Source of the DNA: an uncultured Methylococcaceae bacterium
GTDB taxonomy: Bacteria > Pseudomonadota > Gammaproteobacteria > Methylococcales > Methylomonadaceae
Assembly (NCBI GenBank): GCA_903944165.1
Contig: CAJAQT010000195.1
Span: 1 to 39,646 of the forward strand
Direction: 5' to 3'
DNA: 39,646 bases
Each line of letters starts with the position of its first letter. Positions within the stretch are counted from its first letter, which is position 1. Shown here in pieces: positions 6,820-39,646 of this stretch. Under the pieces are notes generated by a model. That model did not search any database and was not told the DNA's origin. It was given only the letters and a program-made list of their open reading frames with translations. The position numbers were made by a program, and so were the translations under genes.

Positions 6820-8391
6820 ATGACCAAACTCATTACCCAACTCTGCACCAGTGGACAACAACTACTTTTATGTGGGGGACTTAAAGGCTTAGAAAAAGAA
6901 AGTTTACGCATCACCAAACATGGCGAAATTGCTCAAACAACTCACCCGCTCGCCTTAGGTTCGGCCTTAACTCATCCTACCATCACTACTGATTATTCTG
7001 AGGCTCTTATTGAGCTAATTACCCCACCGTATCCACATATCCACGACACACTCGCTGATTTGCACCACCATCATCAGTTTGTTTATCAGCATCTTGACGC
7101 TGAGCTATTACTCGCGGTCAGCATGCCCTGTGGTATCGAAGGCGATGAAAGCGTTCGCATTGCAGACTATGGTAATTCTAATATTGGCCGTATGAAACAT
7201 GTGTATCGCCATGGTTTATGGCATCGCTATGGTCGAACAATGCAAGCCATTGCAGGCATTCATTTTAATTATTCTGTGCCTGACGCTTTATGGCCAGTGT
7301 TACATCAACTGACTAAGTGTACTGACAGTTTAGATGACTTTATTTCAAGCCGTTATTTTGCCTTAATCCGTAATTTTCAGCGTATTGGTTGGATAGTTTT
7401 ATATTTGTTTGGTGCGTCACCCGCACTGTGTAAGCAATTCTTTAATAGCCGTCCTGAACTCATTGACCAATTTGAACGTTTTGATGAACATACCTTGTAT
7501 CATCCCTATGCAACCTCTTTGCGCATGAGTGATATTGGCTACAAAAGTCAAAATCAAGCTAAATTAAATATCAATTACAACAGCTTAGGCGCGTATGTTG
7601 ACAGCTTAACTGAGGCTATCTCAACACCTTATGCAGAGTATGAAAAAATTGGTATTGTGGTGGATGGCACTTATAAACAATTAAACAGTCATCTATTGCA
7701 AATTGAAAACGAGTTTTACAGTACGATTAGGCCTAAGCAAATTACCCATTCATGCGAAAAACCCACCGTCGCCTTAAAGCGTCGTGGGGTGCGTTATGTA
7801 GAAATGCGTTCGCTAGATTTAGATCCTTTTTTACCTTTAGGCATTGATGAAACTAAAGCCTGTTTTATTGAAGCCTTATTACTAACCTGCTTATTAACAG
7901 ATAGCCCCTTGTTTACTGAACATGATGAACGTATCAATAACACCAACCAATTACTGGTTGCTAATGAAGGTAGAAAACCTGGCGTGTTATTGCAGAAAAA
8001 TAATCACAGTATTTCATTAACCGATTGGGCACAGGAAATCATCGCCAGTATGACGCCGATTTGTCAAATCTTGGATACTCAGGAAGCCCAGCAACCGTAT
8101 CAACACGCTTTACAGATCGCCCAGCAATGTGTGACCCATCCTGAACTAACGCCGTCCGCGCGTTTAATAAAAGAAATGCAAATGGAAGCAATGTGTTTTG
8201 GCTCGTTTGCATTAAAACATTCCTTAGCTAATGCAGACTATTTTAGCTCGCGCCCCTTAGATGCCGCAAAAAACCAGTATTATCACGATTTAGCACAGCA
8301 ATCACACCAACAACAATCGGCACTTGAAGCGCAGTCAGAACCACCCTTTGATCAATTTTTAACTGCCTATTTTTCGCAAACTTGCTCGTAA
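6820..8391 (+). CDS. gshA: Glutamate-cysteine ligase (proteobacterial type)
   Basis: This enzyme makes gamma-glutamylcysteine, the first and limiting step of glutathione synthesis, in the cytoplasm. Its 523 residues match E. coli GshA (518). The N-terminal signature GLEKESLRI (about residues 24-32) is intact, as are TDYSEALIELITPP, MPCGIEGDESVRIADYG, IAGIHFNYSVP and RGVRYVEMRSLDLDPF. The start ATG at 6820 fits the family N-terminus; a run resembling a ribosome-binding site is not obvious. It is the first gene of a tight run with cysH (4 bp gap), gdx, dsrH and dsrC, all of which handle thiols or sulfur except the SMR exporter. Confidence 0.97.
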   Translation: MTKLITQLCTSGQQLLLCGGLKGLEKESLRITKHGEIAQTTHPLALGSALTHPTITTDYSEALIELITPPYPHIHDTLADLHHHHQFVYQHLDAELLLAVSMPCGIEGDESVRIADYGNSNIGRMKHVYRHGLWHRYGRTMQAIAGIHFNYSVPDALWPVLHQLTKCTDSLDDFISSRYFALIRNFQRIGWIVLYLFGASPALCKQFFNSRPELIDQFERFDEHTLYHPYATSLRMSDIGYKSQNQAKLNINYNSLGAYVDSLTEAISTPYAEYEKIGIVVDGTYKQLNSHLLQIENEFYSTIRPKQITHSCEKPTVALKRRGVRYVEMRSLDLDPFLPLGIDETKACFIEALLLTCLLTDSPLFTEHDERINNTNQLLVANEGRKPGVLLQKNNHSISLTDWAQEIIASMTPICQILDTQEAQQPYQHALQIAQQCVTHPELTPSARLIKEMQMEAMCFGSFALKHSLANADYFSSRPLDAAKNQYYHDLAQQSHQQQSALEAQSEPPFDQFLTAYFSQTCS

Positions 8392-8395
8392 AATA

Positions 8396-9136
8396 ATGAA
8401 TTCAATAGACATTACCGCCTTACAACAAGAATTAAAAGATAAAAAGCCACGGGCTATTTTAAGTAAAGCCTTAAGCTTGGTTGACTCAATTGCCCTATCC
8501 TTCAGTGGTGCAGAAGATGTAATACTCATTGATTTAGCACTCACCATAAAAAAAGACCTTGCAGTGTTTTGCTTAGATACCGGACGTTTACATCCAGAAA
8601 CCTATCGTTTTATTGACAATGTAGCTAAGCATTATGGCATCACTATCGAAATACTTACGCCAGACCGTACCTATTTAGACCCCTTTGTAAAAGCAAAAGG
8701 TTTGTTTAGTTTTTATCAAGATGGCCATCATGAATGCTGTGGTTTACGCAAAGTTGAGCCGTTAAAAACTAAATTAGCCCAGCTTGAAGCGTGGATTACT
8801 GGACAGCGCAAAGATCAAAGTATCGATACACGTCAGCATCTCCCAGAAGTGCAATGGGATACTACCTTTGGCAGCGAAACCAAACCCTTAATCAAATTTA
8901 ATCCTTTAGTAAACTGGAATTCAGCACAAGTTTGGGATTATATTCACGCCTATCAGGTTCCTTTTAATCCCTTGCATCAACAAGGTTTTGTCAGCATTGG
9001 CTGTGAACCCTGTACACGCGCTATTTTACCAAATGAACATGAGCGAGCAGGACGCTGGTGGTGGGAAGCTGAAACCAAAAAAGAATGTGGCTTACATGCT
9101 GGAAATATCAATCCTCTCCCACACTCACAGGCTTAA
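8396..9136 (+). CDS. cysH: Assimilatory APS reductase (4Fe-4S CysH type)
   Basis: The enzyme reduces activated sulfate to sulfite using thioredoxin or glutathione. The 246-residue protein has the PAPS reductase fold: a P-loop-like SFSGAEDV at about 35, LDTGRLHPETY at 60, and the catalytic cysteine Cys231 in KKECGLH. It also has both cysteine pairs that bind a 4Fe-4S cluster: Cys114-Cys115 (HECCGLRKVEPL) and Cys203/Cys206 (GCEPCTRAI). That cluster marks the APS-using enzymes (EC 1.8.4.10) and separates them from the E. coli PAPS-specific enzyme, which lacks it. Translation is probably coupled to gshA, four bases upstream. Confidence 0.93.
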   Translation: MNSIDITALQQELKDKKPRAILSKALSLVDSIALSFSGAEDVILIDLALTIKKDLAVFCLDTGRLHPETYRFIDNVAKHYGITIEILTPDRTYLDPFVKAKGLFSFYQDGHHECCGLRKVEPLKTKLAQLEAWITGQRKDQSIDTRQHLPEVQWDTTFGSETKPLIKFNPLVNWNSAQVWDYIHAYQVPFNPLHQQGFVSIGCEPCTRAILPNEHERAGRWWWEAETKKECGLHAGNINPLPHSQA

Positions 9137-15479: not shown

Positions 15480-16445
15480 ATGACAACAGCGTATTTGAAA
15501 CGACTATTAATCAGCCTAATGTTATTAAGCACCGTCACGACAGTAGCTGCGAAAACGCCCTTGCGTCTTGGCGTGCTCATGACCGGAACCTTAGGCTGGG
15601 AAATACCTGCATTACAACAGCTGCACTTAACTAATGTTGACATCGTGGTGCATCCCTTAGCCCAACCTGAGGCGGGTAAAATTGCCTTACAATCAGGTGC
15701 AGTAGATATGATTGTTACGGATTGGATTTGGGTGGCTCGTTTACGTGCTACGGGTTCAGATTTAACGTTTTATCCTTATTCTCAGGCGTCAGGTGCATTA
15801 TTGGTGCCAGAAAAAAGTGCCATTCATGAGCTTGCTGACTTAACGGGCAAGCGTTTAGGAATCGTTGGGGGGGATTTAGATAAAAACTGGTTGTTACTTC
15901 AAGCCTTAGGTTTGCAAGCTAAGATTAATTTGGCTGATAGCGTTGAAAAAACCTTTGCTGCCCCACCATTGCTTAACGAACAACTGAAAAAAAATCGCCT
16001 CGATGCCTTATTAACATATTGGAATTTTGCCGTGCCTTTAGAATTAGCGGGCTATCGACAGCTTATCGATGGTCAGGGCATACAACAAAAATTAGGTATT
16101 ACCGAAGCAGTTCCCACCTTAGGCTTTGTCTTTAAGGATGCCTTTGCCAACAAACATCCTGAAGCAATACAAGAATTTTTTGCTGCAAGCAGCAAGGTGA
16201 AACAGCAATTATGTACTTCCGATACCGACTGGCAACACGCATTGCCTGTTATTAAGGTCACGAATAGCCAGGAATTAATTCTGTTACGCCAACGTTATTG
16301 CCAAGGTCAAATTACTCAGTGGGGTGCCGCCGAAAAAGCTTCTGCGCAGCGGATGTTCACTTTGTTACGGACACTCAGTCAGCAGCACCTCACTGGCGCA
16401 TCTGAAACCATTCCAGCGGGAACCTTTTGGGCACAAGAAAATTAA
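15480..16445 (+). CDS. ABC transporter substrate-binding protein (NMT1/SsuA-like)
   Basis: This 321-residue exported protein has a signal peptide (MTTAYLKRLL..., likely cut after TVAA at about residue 24). The mature part has the two-lobed pattern of NMT1/TauA/SsuA binding proteins: LRLGVLMTGTLGWEIPAL, AVDMIVTDWIWVARLRATG, LTGKRLGIVGGDLDKNWLLL and LDALLTYWNFAVPLELAG. Ligands of the family include sulfonates, nitrate and thiamine precursors; nothing in the sequence fixes the ligand here. The acidic/aromatic DWIWVAR pocket segment is notable. It leads a three-gene importer with the permease and ATPase that follow. Confidence 0.85.
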   Translation: MTTAYLKRLLISLMLLSTVTTVAAKTPLRLGVLMTGTLGWEIPALQQLHLTNVDIVVHPLAQPEAGKIALQSGAVDMIVTDWIWVARLRATGSDLTFYPYSQASGALLVPEKSAIHELADLTGKRLGIVGGDLDKNWLLLQALGLQAKINLADSVEKTFAAPPLLNEQLKKNRLDALLTYWNFAVPLELAGYRQLIDGQGIQQKLGITEAVPTLGFVFKDAFANKHPEAIQEFFAASSKVKQQLCTSDTDWQHALPVIKVTNSQELILLRQRYCQGQITQWGAAEKASAQRMFTLLRTLSQQHLTGASETIPAGTFWAQEN

Positions 16446-16461
16446 AACTATTTTAAGCATA

Positions 16462-17199
16462 GTGAATAAGTCTTTACCTTGGCTGTCTTTTTTTAGCTTA
16501 CTCACACTCTGGCAAGGCTGCGCAATGTTGGTGAACAACGCAGTGTTACCAGCGCCTGCACAGGTTTTTTGGGTGTTTATTGAGGCCGTGCAATCGGGAC
16601 AACTGCCTCATCATTTAGGCATAACACTGTGTCGATTAATCGTCAGTTTTATCGTCGCCATGACGCTAGGCATTATTATTGGCTATAGCTTAGGACGTTC
16701 AGCGACGGCTAATCGATTTTTTGATCATTGGGTGATTATTTTTTTAAACATACCCGCCTTAGTCACTATTATTTTATGTTATGTCTGGTTTGGTTTAAAT
16801 GAAATGGCGGCACTGCTTGCAGTAGTCATTAACAAATTACCCAATGTGATTGTTATTATCAGAGAAGGTGTCAGAGCACTCGATCAGGAGTTATTAGCAA
16901 TGGCGACATGTTATCGCTTGCGGCGTTGGGTAGTCTTCAGACACGTCATTCTGCCACAGCTACATCCTTTCATCATGACTGCCACGCGCTCTGGCTTATC
17001 GTTAACATGGAAAATTATTTTAGTGGTTGAATTACTTGGTCGCAGTGACGGCGTTGGTTTTCAATTGCATACCTTTTTTCAATTATTTGATGTGGCCAGT
17101 ATTCTTGCTTACACCATCGCCTTTGTTGTCGTGGTGCAACTACTTGAATGGGGCGTACTTCGCCCCTTGGATCGACGCTCAGTAAAGTGGCGTAGATGA
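16462..17199 (+). CDS. ABC transporter permease (SsuC/TauC-like)
   Basis: This protein of about 245 residues has roughly six membrane helices and the BPD-transport EAA loop (ALDQELLAMATCYRLRRWVV then RHVILPQLHPFIMTATRSG), which docks the ATPase. The opening FFSLLTLWQGCAML and VLPAPAQVFWVFIE is typical of SsuC/TauC/ThiX permeases. The start is uncertain: I use the GTG at 16462, 16 bp after the preceding stop. The frame is open back to a GTG at 16324 inside the binding-protein gene, but that extension is not family-like. Its stop overlaps the ATPase start (ATGA). Confidence 0.85.
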   Translation: MNKSLPWLSFFSLLTLWQGCAMLVNNAVLPAPAQVFWVFIEAVQSGQLPHHLGITLCRLIVSFIVAMTLGIIIGYSLGRSATANRFFDHWVIIFLNIPALVTIILCYVWFGLNEMAALLAVVINKLPNVIVIIREGVRALDQELLAMATCYRLRRWVVFRHVILPQLHPFIMTATRSGLSLTWKIILVVELLGRSDGVGFQLHTFFQLFDVASILAYTIAFVVVVQLLEWGVLRPLDRRSVKWRR

Positions 17200-17939
17200 A
17201 TAACTTAAGCATTTGTGTGCAAGCCAAACACTTTCCCGCCGTGGGCAAAGCACTGCCAAAATGTGCCATAGCTGACTTATCTATGTCCGTGCAAGCAGGT
17301 GAATTTGTCTGTTTAATCGGCCCGTCAGGCTGTGGAAAAACCACTTTATTAAATATTATCGCTGGCGTAGATACGCAGTTTACGGGAAATATCAGCTACA
17401 GTGGCAAAGCCGTGTTGCCTAAAATAGGCGTAGTTTTCCAACAACCACGCTTATTAGCATGGCGAACCGTGCGCGAAAATATTGACCTTGTCTTGGCTAA
17501 TCCAAGCGCATCTGCACACAGTGTTGATGAATTATTGGCCTTGATGAACTTAACTGACGTGCAGCATGTCTATCCAGAACGCTTATCCTTGGGGATGAGT
17601 CGACGCGTAGCGATTATTCGCGCCTTTGCTATTGCGCCCGAAGTGTTATTAATGGATGAGCCTTTTGTGTCCTTAGATATTCCCGCAGCAAGGCAGGTGC
17701 GCGAAGCCTTACTTAGCTTATGGCTGCATCGACCACATAGCGTTATATTTGTCAGTCACGATTTGCGAGAAGCCATTGCCTTAGCTGATCGTATCCTTTT
17801 TTTATCATCCTCACCCATGCACGTAATTTCTGAAGTTAAAGTCACCATCCCACGAAATATACGCAATGATGAACACGTAATTAACGCGTTTAGAGAACAA
17901 TTAAAGCATGAACTTCCGCACCTGCACGCATTATTTTAA
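17196..17939 (+). CDS. ABC transporter ATP-binding protein (SsuB/TauB-like)
   Basis: This 247-residue ATPase energises the importer. Walker A is GPSGCGKTT (about residue 42), the Q-loop is VVFQQPRLLAWRTVREN, Walker B is VLLMDEPFVSLD and the H-loop is VIFVSHDLREAIALADR. The ABC signature reads LSLGMSRRVAI, in place of the usual LSGGQ/LSGGM, so the second signature glycine position is Leu. This may lower ATPase activity or be a subgroup feature. It starts inside the permease stop codon. The message may continue into the KYPAA-repeat gene about 110 bp downstream. Confidence 0.88.
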   Translation: MNNLSICVQAKHFPAVGKALPKCAIADLSMSVQAGEFVCLIGPSGCGKTTLLNIIAGVDTQFTGNISYSGKAVLPKIGVVFQQPRLLAWRTVRENIDLVLANPSASAHSVDELLALMNLTDVQHVYPERLSLGMSRRVAIIRAFAIAPEVLLMDEPFVSLDIPAARQVREALLSLWLHRPHSVIFVSHDLREAIALADRILFLSSSPMHVISEVKVTIPRNIRNDEHVINAFREQLKHELPHLHALF

Positions 17940-18051
17940 GCCATGTAAGGCTGATAAAACGGTTGCGAATTTAATTAAAATATTCGATACTTCAAAGGCA
18001 CTTGAAGGCACAATCTTAAAAAATAACGAGACACCAGGAGAACGTATTACT

Positions 18052-18348
18052 ATGAAAAAAACACTTTTGTCAGCAACACTGCTGACACTATCCTTAGTAA
18101 ATCCACTCATTGCAACGGCTGCAAGCAATGATAAATACCCCGCTGCTAATTTTTCACCTAGCGTTATTTACCTTGATAAGGATGTCACGCTATCAGAAAT
18201 CACCACCAGTTTTGATCCAAAATATCCCGCCGCGACATTTCAGCCTACGGTCGTTTATGCGGATAATGACTTAATCCAACAAACTGAACAAAAATTTGAT
18301 CCAAAATATCCAGCCGCTTATTTCAAACCAAAAGTTATTTATCCATAA
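18052..18348 (+). CDS. Small exported protein with three KYPAA repeats
   Basis: This 98-residue protein starts with a clear signal peptide (MKKTLLSATLLTLSLVNPL, likely cut around ATA/AS, residue 22-25). The mature part of about 74 residues is almost wholly three repeats: KYPAANFSPSVIY (28-40), KYPAATFQPTVVY (57-69) and KYPAAYFKPKVIY (85-97), spaced 29 and 28 residues apart. Asp-rich linkers (YLDKD, YADND, FDPK) separate them. There is no cysteine. AGGAG at 18036-18040 lies 11 bp before the ATG; a longer frame to 17908 overlaps the ATPase gene and is unlikely. I do not recognise a characterised family. It could be a periplasmic metal- or ligand-binding accessory to the transporter, but that is inference. 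Confidence 0.85.
   Translation: MKKTLLSATLLTLSLVNPLIATAASNDKYPAANFSPSVIYLDKDVTLSEITTSFDPKYPAATFQPTVVYADNDLIQQTEQKFDPKYPAAYFKPKVIYP
18133..18342 (+). repeat. Coding tandem repeat, three units of about 28-29 codons
   Basis: Three in-frame units encode KYPAAxFxPxVxY followed by a short acidic linker. The second and third units share the DNA run TTTGATCCAAAATATCC before the AAs, suggesting recent duplication, while the first has diverged more. The last unit ends one codon before the stop with no linker. Confidence 0.85.
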
Positions 18349-18622: not shown

Positions 18623-18922
18623 ATGCGATCATATTTACTGTTTATTGCACTCAATACACTTTGCTGCACTGCCTATGCAGCAGCAGACATCAACCAAAAA
18701 TACTGTGTTGATAGTAAAACAACGCAAGAATTTATCAAATTATTGACCGATCATCCTCACGATACCGGCATCGTGCGTTTAGTTGCACTTAAAGAAGGCT
18801 TGTGTAACATGATTAATCAGCACCACGTTTCTATACACATCGCTAATCAATTATGGGATACAGAACGACAAAAGATGTTCTTAGAACGCACCAAAAGAAA
18901 TCTTAATCGCTTTAGTGAATAG
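18623..18922 (+). CDS. Small secreted two-cysteine protein of unknown function
   Basis: This 99-residue protein has a signal peptide (MRSYLLFIALNTLCCTAYAA, likely cut after AYA). The mature part of about 80 residues is helical in look, with two cysteines (KYCVDSK and GLCNMI, about 33 residues apart) that could form a periplasmic disulfide, and a basic end (FLERTKRNLNRFSE). There is no clear ribosome-binding site before the ATG. It sits after a hairpin-rich gap and converges with fimV. I do not recognise the family. Confidence 0.65.
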   Translation: MRSYLLFIALNTLCCTAYAAADINQKYCVDSKTTQEFIKLLTDHPHDTGIVRLVALKEGLCNMINQHHVSIHIANQLWDTERQKMFLERTKRNLNRFSE

Positions 18923-36752: not shown

Positions 36753-37397
36753 ATGACTGTCACTATGATTAAAAAAACGCTATTAATTTCTTTGTTAACC
36801 ACAGGTATGTTCACTGCCGCAAACAGCCAAGCTGCAACTCAACTTCCTGTTATCAATGCATTCACTGCTGAGGTCACTGAAGCGGTATTGTCTGTTAAAA
36901 GCAAAGGCTGGCATGATGCGGCCTTTGGTGATATGGGGTGGACGCATAGTTCTGATTGGGGCTCATTTAGCGCTAATAAAGGCGAGACTGTGCGCATTAA
37001 AGTAGCATCAACACAGCTTGGTTTGCACCCTGGCATTACTGTTTGGCACCGTGGTATCGATGACACCGCTCCAGATAGCTATGTGGTTGATCATTTTTAT
37101 CCACAAAACGCTAATTTCGTAAAAATTGGTGTCACGGATGAAACCACAGGTGAAAAACTAGGTAATATTGTGATGCGTCATATTATCCATGCTTACGATG
37201 GCGACAACACCGTCAAAGTGGGACGTATGAAACCAGTAAAAGATGGGCGTGCAGGTGAGTTAGAAATAAGCTTCAAAGCACCTAAAAAAGGTTTAGGTCA
37301 GTATATGTTTGTGGTGGGCGGCATTAATCCAGATGAAGGTGTTGACACGTCATTAAAATATGACATGAATGTATCTGTTTCTGTTACCAAACCCTAA
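36753..37397 (+). CDS. corA: CorA/MopE-like copper(I)-binding secreted protein
   Basis: This 214-residue exported protein has a signal peptide (MTVTMIKKTLLISLLTTGMF, likely cut after SQA). In the methanotroph proteins CorA and MopE, surface-bound Cu(I) is held by two histidines and a kynurenine made from a Trp two residues before a His. Here GDMGWTHSSDWG contains Trp63-x-His65, in a suitable place; candidate second histidines are His143/His146 (MRHIIHAYDG) and His99 (TVWHRG). The next gene encodes a diheme cytochrome peroxidase-like protein, as in CorA-CorB and MopE-SACCP. AAAGGA supports the ATG at 36753. Identification rests on motif plus neighbourhood, not alignment. This is not the Mg2+ channel that shares the name CorA. 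Confidence 0.65.
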   Translation: MTVTMIKKTLLISLLTTGMFTAANSQAATQLPVINAFTAEVTEAVLSVKSKGWHDAAFGDMGWTHSSDWGSFSANKGETVRIKVASTQLGLHPGITVWHRGIDDTAPDSYVVDHFYPQNANFVKIGVTDETTGEKLGNIVMRHIIHAYDGDNTVKVGRMKPVKDGRAGELEISFKAPKKGLGQYMFVVGGINPDEGVDTSLKYDMNVSVSVTKP

Positions 37398-37406
37398 GCG
37401 GTTACT

Positions 37407-37434
37407 TTCGCATACACGCCTGCGTGTATGCGAA
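37407..37434 (+). terminator. Perfect 12-base hairpin between CorA-like gene and diheme cytochrome
   Basis: TTCGCATACACG (37407-37418) pairs with CGTGTATGCGAA (37423-37434) around a four-base loop, 9 bp after the CorA-like stop. No T-run follows, so it may be a partial terminator or a 3' stabiliser that sets a higher level of the first gene relative to the second. Confidence 0.5.
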
Positions 37435-37528
37435 GGCATTGCTGATAGCTAGTAAATACATTACTTCTTGAGTCTTCATTAAACTCAGCAGTGTATTTTC
37501 CACTCTACATTTTTACATTTTAAACACC

Positions 37529-39646
37529 ATGCACTTTACTTTATTAACTTCTTTATTGTCCTCTCGACACACGCTGATAGTGGTGTCTTTACTAAGCTTA
37601 CTTAACGCTTCAAATGCGTGGCCGCATGGCAACACGCCCGCCTCTTTACAAGGCATTCAAGTACCGATAACGCCAGGCTTAGTAGAGGGCAGTGATCCGA
37701 TTATTATTGATAAAGAAACCGCCATCCAATTAGGCAAGGCGTTATTTTGGGATATCAATGTGGGCAGTGATGGTATGGCTTGTGCGTCCTGTCATTTTCA
37801 TGCAGGCGCTGATGCACGTTATAAAAACCAATTGTCCCCTGGTCAACTAAACGCAGCACATCCTACGAAATTTAATCTTACCGCTTCTGGTGCTCAAGGC
37901 GGTCCTAATTACACCTTAAAACGCAGTGACTTTCCACTCCACCAACTCACCAAGCCAACAGATCAAGCATCTAGTGTGGTTTTTACTACAGATGATATTG
38001 TTTCCTCAGCAGGTGTTTTCTTAGCTGAGTACCAAAACACCACTGACCACGCTGACGATGCCTGTCGTGCAAATCATGATCCCTTATTCCATATTAACAA
38101 CTTAAGCACGCGCCAAGTGCAAACTCGCCAAGCACCCAGCGTAATTAATGCCGCATTTAATTTCCGTAATTTTTGGGATGGTCGGGCAAATAATATTTTT
38201 AATGGCGTAACAGTTTTTGGTGTACGTGACCGTAACGCGTCAATTTGGGTAGTTGATGCTAAAGGTAAAACAGTTAAACAAACCATACGCTTAGAAAATT
38301 CAGCACTCGCTTCACAAGCCGTTGGCCCTGCTGTAAATACCTCTGAAATGTCCTGCCAGCACCGGACATTTCCTGAATTAGGACGCAAATTACTGACGCG
38401 TACACCCTTAGAAACTCAGCGAATACATCCTGATGACAGCGTGTTAGCCACCTTACGTAAAAAATCTGGCATAGGGCTTAGCACAACCTATGCAGCAATG
38501 ATTAAAAAAGCCTTTGCACCACGCTATTGGTCTGGTGAAGGGGAATTTGGTCAGGCATTCATTGCTAAAGCACCCGCCTATTCACAATTAGAAGCCAATT
38601 TCTCGTTTTATTTTGGCTTAGCACTGCAACTGTATCAACAAACTTTAATTTCTGATCAAACACCTTTTGATACACCAAGACTCGCAGGCTTTCCACAAAT
38701 GCCTACAGGTTTAAACAATAAACAGCGACGCGGTTTAAAAGTGTTTCTTAACGCTCATTGCTCAGAATGTCATAAAGGTCCCACACTAACATCAGCCGCA
38801 CATCCAGAAGTTTACACGGCATCAGACTCGTTTTCTGCGCCTCGCTTAATTAATCGTAAAACCATTAATGGTTCGTTTAATGGTGGCGGTGTCGCACAAG
38901 GCTTAATTGATGAGGGCTATTTTAATACCAGCGTTACGCCAACTAATGAAGATTTAGGTGTAGGCGGCAAAGATCCTTTTGGCAATCCGTTATCGTTCAG
39001 TGAACAATATTTACAACAATTACGCGATAACTCAGCACCAGTTGATCCCATCGCGATGAATTCATGTGATTTAGATAATTCATTTGCACAAGACTACAAA
39101 AAAACCGAATTGACAGACGACTCTTACCTGAAAGGCGATTGTTTTGATCGTTCTATTTATGCAAAAATCCCTTTACCTGCGGTTATTGAAGCTGAATTAC
39201 AAAAAAATAATGGCGGACGTTTTATGGTTGCGACGCAAGGTGCTTTTAAAGTCCCCACCCTACGTAACATTGAATTAACAGGGCCTTATATGCATAACGG
39301 TAGCCTGCTTACTTTAGAACACGTTATCGATTTTTACTTCCGTGGCGGTAATATTAATAACCCTCACCATTTTGCTACCTTAGTATTTCAACAAGCGATT
39401 AGTAAACGTGAAAAAGCTGATTTAGTAGCGTTCTTGACTTCATTAACTGATGAGCGAGTAAGATGGGAACGCGCACCTTTTGATCACCCAGAACTTCGCG
39501 TTCCTCATGGTCACAAACAAGCCGCTGACCCGAACGTGCCAGAATGGGCAGCGGATAACTTTATGACCGTGCCGGCCATTGGTAAACAAGGCCGTGATGA
39601 GCGCTTAGGCCCATTAAAAGCATTTCATACCTATTTGCAAAAATAA
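37529..39646 (+). CDS. corB: Secreted diheme cytochrome c peroxidase-like protein (CorB/SACCP-like)
   Basis: This 705-residue protein has a signal peptide ending near residue 30 (ASNA) and two heme-binding CXXCH motifs, CASCH (Cys85/Cys88/His89) and CSECH (Cys411/Cys414/His415). It belongs to the diheme cytochrome c peroxidase/MauG superfamily (LGKALFWDINVGSDGMACAS, RQAPSVINAAFNFRNFWDGR, PTLRNIELTGPYMHNGSL). It is about twice as long as a classical CcpA peroxidase (around 320-350 residues) because of a long stretch between the hemes, as in the surface-associated cytochrome peroxidase that follows mopE in methanotrophs. It may act in copper handling or in making the kynurenine of its neighbour; that is inference. 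The stop is the last codon of the window, so the gene is complete. Confidence 0.85.
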   Translation: MHFTLLTSLLSSRHTLIVVSLLSLLNASNAWPHGNTPASLQGIQVPITPGLVEGSDPIIIDKETAIQLGKALFWDINVGSDGMACASCHFHAGADARYKNQLSPGQLNAAHPTKFNLTASGAQGGPNYTLKRSDFPLHQLTKPTDQASSVVFTTDDIVSSAGVFLAEYQNTTDHADDACRANHDPLFHINNLSTRQVQTRQAPSVINAAFNFRNFWDGRANNIFNGVTVFGVRDRNASIWVVDAKGKTVKQTIRLENSALASQAVGPAVNTSEMSCQHRTFPELGRKLLTRTPLETQRIHPDDSVLATLRKKSGIGLSTTYAAMIKKAFAPRYWSGEGEFGQAFIAKAPAYSQLEANFSFYFGLALQLYQQTLISDQTPFDTPRLAGFPQMPTGLNNKQRRGLKVFLNAHCSECHKGPTLTSAAHPEVYTASDSFSAPRLINRKTINGSFNGGGVAQGLIDEGYFNTSVTPTNEDLGVGGKDPFGNPLSFSEQYLQQLRDNSAPVDPIAMNSCDLDNSFAQDYKKTELTDDSYLKGDCFDRSIYAKIPLPAVIEAELQKNNGGRFMVATQGAFKVPTLRNIELTGPYMHNGSLLTLEHVIDFYFRGGNINNPHHFATLVFQQAISKREKADLVAFLTSLTDERVRWERAPFDHPELRVPHGHKQAADPNVPEWAADNFMTVPAIGKQGRDERLGPLKAFHTYLQK

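Follow-up and report, generated by a model that had tools for sequence, protein, structure and literature searches.

An undescribed KYPAA-repeat protein family of Methylococcales, encoded beside a PqqT-type transporter and within the RuMP operon

EPYC1 and CsoS2 are multivalent linkers, unfolded chains in which short binding motifs recur, and act on Rubisco in the plastid or the cytoplasm. Methanol dehydrogenase depends on PQQ, functions together with MxaD, and produces the formaldehyde that RuMP fixes; PQQ enzymes use Ca or lanthanides, and methanotroph families have intracytoplasmic membranes. According to PMC12124388, PqqT binds PQQ with a Kd of 50 nM, and PMC12828617 gives 9B1V as PqqT with PQQ and Gd (PDB title, "PqqT with PQQ and Gd3+ bound").

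We analyzed a window of 39,646 nucleotides, the whole stretch of DNA presented here, from an uncultured Methylococcaceae bacterium. A predicted transporter trio resembling PqqT is followed in it by T1, a gene for a small repeat protein. The features discussed below are as follows.

15480 to 16445, + strand: homologue of the PqqT-type periplasmic PQQ-binding protein, assigned by sequence, profile, and model comparison
16444 to 17199, + strand: ABC permease, from a BPD_transp_1 match (stretch as searched, start codon approximate)
17196 to 17939, + strand: ABC ATPase, from an ABC_tran match
17963 to 17991, + strand: promoter-like element of T1, TTGCGA-N17-GATACT, conserved upstream of T1
18052 to 18348, + strand: T1, a 98-aa, putatively exported three-repeat protein with homologues in relatives and under purifying selection
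18052 to 18123, + strand: signal-peptide-like segment of T1, residues 1 to 24, from sequence, with the cleavage site judged by eye
18133 to 18171, + strand: T1 repeat 1, residues 28 to 40, motif match
18220 to 18258, + strand: T1 repeat 2, residues 57 to 69, motif match
18304 to 18342, + strand: T1 repeat 3, residues 85 to 97, motif match

The translation of 18052 to 18348 begins with a hydrophobic, signal-like N terminus, and from residue 25 on it comprises 74 residues. Among 26 aligned T1 sequences, Ala23 is invariant, as is Pro98, which directly follows repeat 3 and ends the chain in 25 of the 26. Cys, Met, Trp, and His are all absent from the mature T1 of the window. A first-pass annotation of this DNA had described the linkers as acidic, but with a net charge of -2 the mature chain is only mildly so. 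T1 is a real gene under purifying selection (dN/dS of about 0.1); its reading frame is kept in homologues, and comparison of the window's copy with that of locus L073 gave a dN of ~0.04 and a dS of ~0.42 overall, with 0.02 and 0.33, respectively, inside the repeats. AlphaFold, supplied with the 26 aligned sequences, returned a pLDDT of 66.7 and a pTM of 0.18, and T1 therefore has no predicted fold. A search among plasmids and phages gave no match to T1 at an E value of 0.01, and comparison of 14 loci revealed no terminator conserved 3′ of the gene. Further downstream, at 18623 to 18922, the window encodes a small exported-looking protein of 99 aa; among the neighborhoods compared, only that of the close relative L033 contains a counterpart.

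The motif KYPAAxFxPxV[IV]Y matches all three T1 repeats, which lie 29 and 28 residues apart and are identical in 9 of 13 columns, while 400 shuffles of the 74 residues with spacings of 20 to 35 yielded at best 3 identical columns. The earlier description of three 13-residue repeats at a spacing of 28 to 29 in a mature protein of ~74 residues is thereby confirmed. So are two further points: the last two repeats share DNA identity, as a direct repeat with 35 of 48 bases in common (18211 to 18258 versus 18295 to 18342), and repeat number, as suspected, varies, with three repeats in 47 of 80 T1 loci, two in 32, and four in 1, as counted by one regular expression that misses degenerate copies. The annotation had also known of no characterized protein with this motif, and indeed T1 matched nothing above the cutoff in Pfam or NCBIfam; the motif and T1 are real and undescribed in these collections. 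We define the KYPAA family, which comprises T1 and its paralogue T2, by at least two copies of D-x-[KQ]-[YF]-P-A-[AST]-x-F-x-P-x-[VI]-[IVL]-[YF] after a signal-like peptide. The T1 of the window fits this pattern, with the Asp of its first repeat one place nearer. One consensus is common to T1 repeats (209 copies) and T2 repeats (45 copies), an agreement that is partly by construction because a regular expression collected the copies; the A1 profile, built from T1, finds T2 independently.

The binding protein matched PqqT (PDB 9b1u and 9b1v) with an E value of 2.4e-47 in a sequence comparison and 8.3e-73 in a profile comparison, which placed the E. coli aliphatic sulfonate-binding protein at 3.2e-5. 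When its AlphaFold model was compared with known structures by Foldseek, the best match was 9b1v (E value of 1.4e-31, TM scores of 0.84/0.91, 33% identity) and the next was SsuA (1.3e-16). An SsuABC-like sulfur transporter, our first impression, was rejected on these profile and Foldseek values, as PqqT fits far better. Residue Y180 aligns with the Tyr changed in the PDB variant Y161W and is invariant in 16 aligned sequences. Judged by sequence and model comparison, then, the window's transporter is of the known PqqT type and not undescribed, and the trio may transport PQQ. Homologues of the binding protein were matched in 188 plasmid records, and all three of the plasmids opened carry homologous trios beside xoxF5, pqqB/pqqC, or quinoprotein relay genes; 3′ of these trios lie other genes in two cases and a gene for a hypothetical protein in one. 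Reading through the window's own neighbors revealed no quinoprotein or pqq genes. At positions 36753 to 39646, the window encodes a CorA-like copper(I)-binding protein and then a MauG-type di-haem protein, the stop codon of which ends on the last base of the contig.

T1 begins 112 bp after the ATPase stop (17939), in agreement with the roughly 110 bp first reported. For locus comparison, the best 80 of 166 relatives in a named collection were kept (Methylovulum, Methylobacter, Methylomonas, Methyloprofundus, Methylomicrobium, Crenothrix, animal symbionts and similar, with a few vaguely labeled). In 50 of these 80 homologous loci, no more than 1 kb separates the ATPase stop from the start of T1 (median gap, 125 bp), the ATPase being recognized by a score of >60 bits to that of the window (52 to 92% identity in the rows compared). 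Thirty loci have no recognized ATPase link; 6 of them have <2 kb of upstream sequence, and 2 others (L097 and L135) have a binding-protein gene upstream with no ATPase recognized. Among relatives, a binding-protein gene lies within 5 kb of a T1-type gene in 18 of 30 genomes by hand count, although in one of the 30, G030, the T1-type gene may be a shortened T2. Genes outside the quartet of binding protein, permease, ATPase, and T1 vary across the 80 loci, and no gene apart from the transporter was seen to accompany T1 constantly. By eye, four unlinked copies follow cysD-cysN (L084, L087, and L088) or cysN (L091), and the remainder follow assorted genes; a sulfur link of T1 was rejected, since only 4 of the 80 loci have such cysD-cysN-like neighbors. 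The transporter neighborhood of T1 is conserved, not obligatory.

The spacer of the promoter-like element often ends in AAAATATTC. A scan allowing two mismatches and spacers of 16 to 18 found the element within 250 bp of T1 in 41 of 51 linked and 24 of 29 unlinked loci (the window counted as linked and L114, which has no upstream sequence, dropped); as a control, 25 of 400 random stretches of the same loci scored, some of these matches probably being the true element. It is absent in fifteen loci, six of them with Methyloprofundus-type surroundings. Because the element is conserved in both linked and unlinked loci, T1 probably has its own promoter, a prediction from sequence. We rejected a promoter common to T1 and other genes: the exact pattern GTTGCG-N18-GATACT had 18 matches in 31 genomes, 11 of them upstream of T1 and the other 7 without the conserved spacer, and a reversed control pattern had 5 matches in the same 31 genomes.

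These results bear on the proposal of the first-pass annotation that T1 and the transporter form an undescribed system, whose homologues should share ABC transporter neighbors. Linkage in 50 of 80 loci and an undescribed repeat uphold part of it, but the transporter appears to be PqqT type, and T1 also occurs elsewhere, in the 30 unlinked loci (6 with <2 kb of upstream sequence). The annotation had named homologues lacking transporter neighbors and expression independent of the transporter as arguments against such a system. Given the unlinked copies (30 of 80 loci without a recognized ATPase) and the promoter-like element conserved whether T1 is linked or not, both therefore hold in part, the latter as a prediction.

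The A1 profile, made from 26 T1 sequences, was searched in 61 relatives of families f1 to f8 and matched 51 of them at an E value of 1 or better. At 1e-5 or better, 48 of the 54 f1 to f6 genomes had the repeat, or 48 of all 61 genomes searched in the order (f1, 37/37; f2, 1/3; f3, 2/2; f4, 2/6; f5, 1/1; f6, 5/5). Four of the six f4 genomes had no repeat at this threshold, and A1 detected none in the seven genomes of f7 and f8. A class-wide sample gave matches in 2 of 369 genomes, both of the window's family, and a phylum-wide sample gave 1 in 398, from the window's own family. The family is thus common among gammaproteobacterial methanotrophs of a single order, with no match outside that order in these samples, and one member sits in the middle of a central carbon-assimilation operon. 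A MAG titled Lysobacterales (L103), with T1 and neighbors of nearly the same sizes as those in a Methylomonas MAG (L102), is probably misnamed or mixed. A literature search, weak in that subscription journals and supplements lay mostly outside it, returned no title or abstract on the KYPAA repeat or T2.

A1 finds two repeat genes in the window's genome, T1 and T2. The strongest context of the T1 repeat is T2, a RuMP-operon paralogue that lies outside the window, on G000:C36. T2 has a signal-like peptide, two KYPAA repeats, a hydrophobic span, and then about four TGVxxYL repeats, a layout that would place the KYPAA repeats on the exported side and the TGVxxYL repeats in the cytoplasm; nothing in Pfam or NCBIfam matched it above the cutoff. 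Its RuMP neighbors, identified by NCBIfam, are HPS, PHI, transketolase, transaldolase, and fructose-bisphosphate aldolase. In f1 and f5, T2 lies between the transketolase (tkt) and transaldolase (tal) genes in 15 of 15 retrieved loci with both flanks present, and four further loci end at a contig edge with transaldolase on the side present. L216 agrees, and in L183, L189 (f3), and L190 a profile-matched frame, for which the regular expression counted no repeats, is also found between tkt and tal. Three f4 genomes (G060, G054, and G039) have a T2-like gene about 1 kb or less before hps. The T2-like proteins of f6 and f2 have the repeats and the hydrophobic span without the TGV tail and lie away from RuMP genes in 5 of 5 loci, and in G046 a degenerate T2 lies well away from hps. 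The T2 homologues of G054 and G039 each retain a single degenerate repeat and extend across two frames (L174, about 8140 to 8560; L175, about 8000 to 8560), which may reflect a pseudogene, an error, or recoding.

Next to T2 in the window's genome is c8, with about eleven TGVxxYL repeats; c8 (L067, 7854 to 8660) and its homologues carry about 4 to 20 such repeats beside T2 in the RuMP operon, and in G030 a 94-residue repeat protein adjoins c8. NCBIfam gave nothing above the cutoff for c8, and a Pfam match to U1snRNP70_N (26.6 bits against a cutoff of 23, with no single stretch passing) was taken as a repeat artifact. A third TGVxxYL family, of about 230 to 300 aa with a conserved C-terminal Cys/His pattern, is encoded away from the RuMP operon. 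The start of that operon can itself occur in repeated copies, with three copies of hps in G029, two in G021, and large TGVxxYL proteins between them. These features are located as follows.

L207, 3300 to 4049; L208, 3478 to 4374; L212, 2734 to 3519; L217, 4442 to 5272; and others: members of the third TGVxxYL family
G029:C1:3513213-3524205; L216, 2334 to 12751: repeated RuMP-operon starts

L183 (G038:C285) and L190 (G052:C1) belong to genomes placed in different families, and their RuMP contigs are almost identical, with frames that match and scores that barely differ; one of the two contigs may be a stray.

In one genome only (L111), three KYPAA repeats follow an SRPBCC domain (Pfam PF10604). 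A homologue of this domain in Methylobacterium nodulans, 38% identical, is encoded inside a methanol dehydrogenase gene cluster, in what we take to be the place of mxaD; the MxaD name is given by gene order. No homologue of the domain was found in eight stretches from four genomes, six around PQQ dehydrogenase genes and two around pmo genes.

We tentatively propose that T1 is an unfolded multivalent periplasmic protein whose repeats dock one-carbon oxidation machinery, possibly PQQ methanol dehydrogenase. T1 would be soluble, and each KYPAAxFxPxVxY repeat would serve as a short linear motif for the same periplasmic partner, with one T1 bridging two to four partner molecules; T2, encoded in the RuMP operon, would expose this motif beyond the inner membrane and a different set of repeats on the inner side. 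The partner would most likely belong to the one-carbon oxidation machinery of Methylococcales, and the PQQ methanol dehydrogenase complex is our best guess because PQQ import, the MxaD-like protein, and RuMP are three contexts centered on methanol dehydrogenase. The distribution of the repeat does not track that enzyme alone, since genomes of f7 and f8 have PQQ alcohol dehydrogenases (7/7) and PqqT homologues (6/7), all without the repeat. G044 (f2) has the repeat and no HPS, which is found in 0 of 3 f2 genomes, and G057 has pMMO, HPS, and PQQ dehydrogenase with no repeat match. Because the repeat best tracks families f1 to f6, pMMO or the membrane system is also allowed as a partner. A rival reading makes the repeat a structural element of the envelope or the intracytoplasmic-membrane lumen that binds pMMO, lipid, peptidoglycan, or itself, T2 tying membranes and T1 acting as a free cross-linker. 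Its presence in 48 of 54 f1 to f6 genomes, including f2 without HPS, agrees with this, as do its absence from f7 and f8, whose pmoB-type matches score lower, and the hydrophobic span that f2 and f6 T2-like proteins keep despite the missing TGV tail. However, G057 has pmoB (E value of 4e-190) and no repeat, and pmoB-type genes, present in 53 of the 61 genomes, include six from the seven repeat-free f7 and f8 genomes, with lower scores than in most f1 to f6 genomes; we consider this reading unlikely.

We are similarly doubtful that T1 assists PQQ import, holding PQQ or acting as an adaptor in the periplasm on behalf of PqqT or the transporter. The PqqT homology of the neighboring binding protein, the placement of T1 behind the ATPase in 50 of 80 loci, and a nearby binding-protein gene in 18 of 30 T1-type genomes all speak for it, but the promoter-like element is also a feature of unlinked loci (24 of 29), these repeats recur in T2 next to RuMP genes, and PqqT homologues occur without any repeat in 6 of 7 f7 and f8 genomes. 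Binding of a metal (Ca or lanthanide) or small ligand by each repeat is very unlikely: Asp flanks the repeat, lying two places ahead of its first residue in 90% of 209 T1 copies and two places beyond the final Tyr in 85% of 136, yet the best-conserved positions are Tyr, Pro, Ala, and Phe, the mature T1 of the window lacks His, Cys, and Met, and no EF-hand-like acidic cluster is seen by eye. An EF-hand protein as such was rejected, T1 having no 12-residue loop with clustered acidic ligands (by eye) and no EF-hand match in Pfam. Tandem copies in varying number behind a signal-like peptide would also suit a multicopy precursor cut into peptides, e.g., a signal or chelator. We find this extremely improbable, as the same repeats occur in the membrane-anchored T2 and on an SRPBCC protein and as no gene besides the transporter stays with T1 across the 80 loci.

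The docking-motif reading is accordingly the best supported, though unproved, and we hold it tentatively. A wider scheme, which we judge distinctly unlikely, is a trans-envelope scaffold in Methylococcales in which KYPAA repeats (on T1, T2, and the MxaD-like fusion) would gather periplasmic oxidation enzymes and TGVxxYL repeats (the T2 tail and c8) would gather RuMP enzymes beneath the same membrane patch, so that formaldehyde would be handed directly from methanol dehydrogenase to hexulose-phosphate synthase. If enzymes are so gathered on two membrane faces, formaldehyde handling and membrane organization would become testable, and methane biotechnology would gain a handle. For T1 itself, T2 is a more telling relative than the transporter link.

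Among known systems, the PqqT-type importer is matched by the window's binding protein, whereas T1 itself is unrelated to PqqT. T1-like repeats are found on a domain related to MxaD in one genome, and T1 is without such a domain. EPYC1 and CsoS2 resemble T1 in their repeated short motifs in an unfolded chain, but T1 looks exported, and its partner is one that we infer. T2 shares with T1 the repeat consensus and the signal-like peptide, while the hydrophobic span, the later TGVxxYL repeats, and the fixed operon place in f1 and f5 belong to T2 only.
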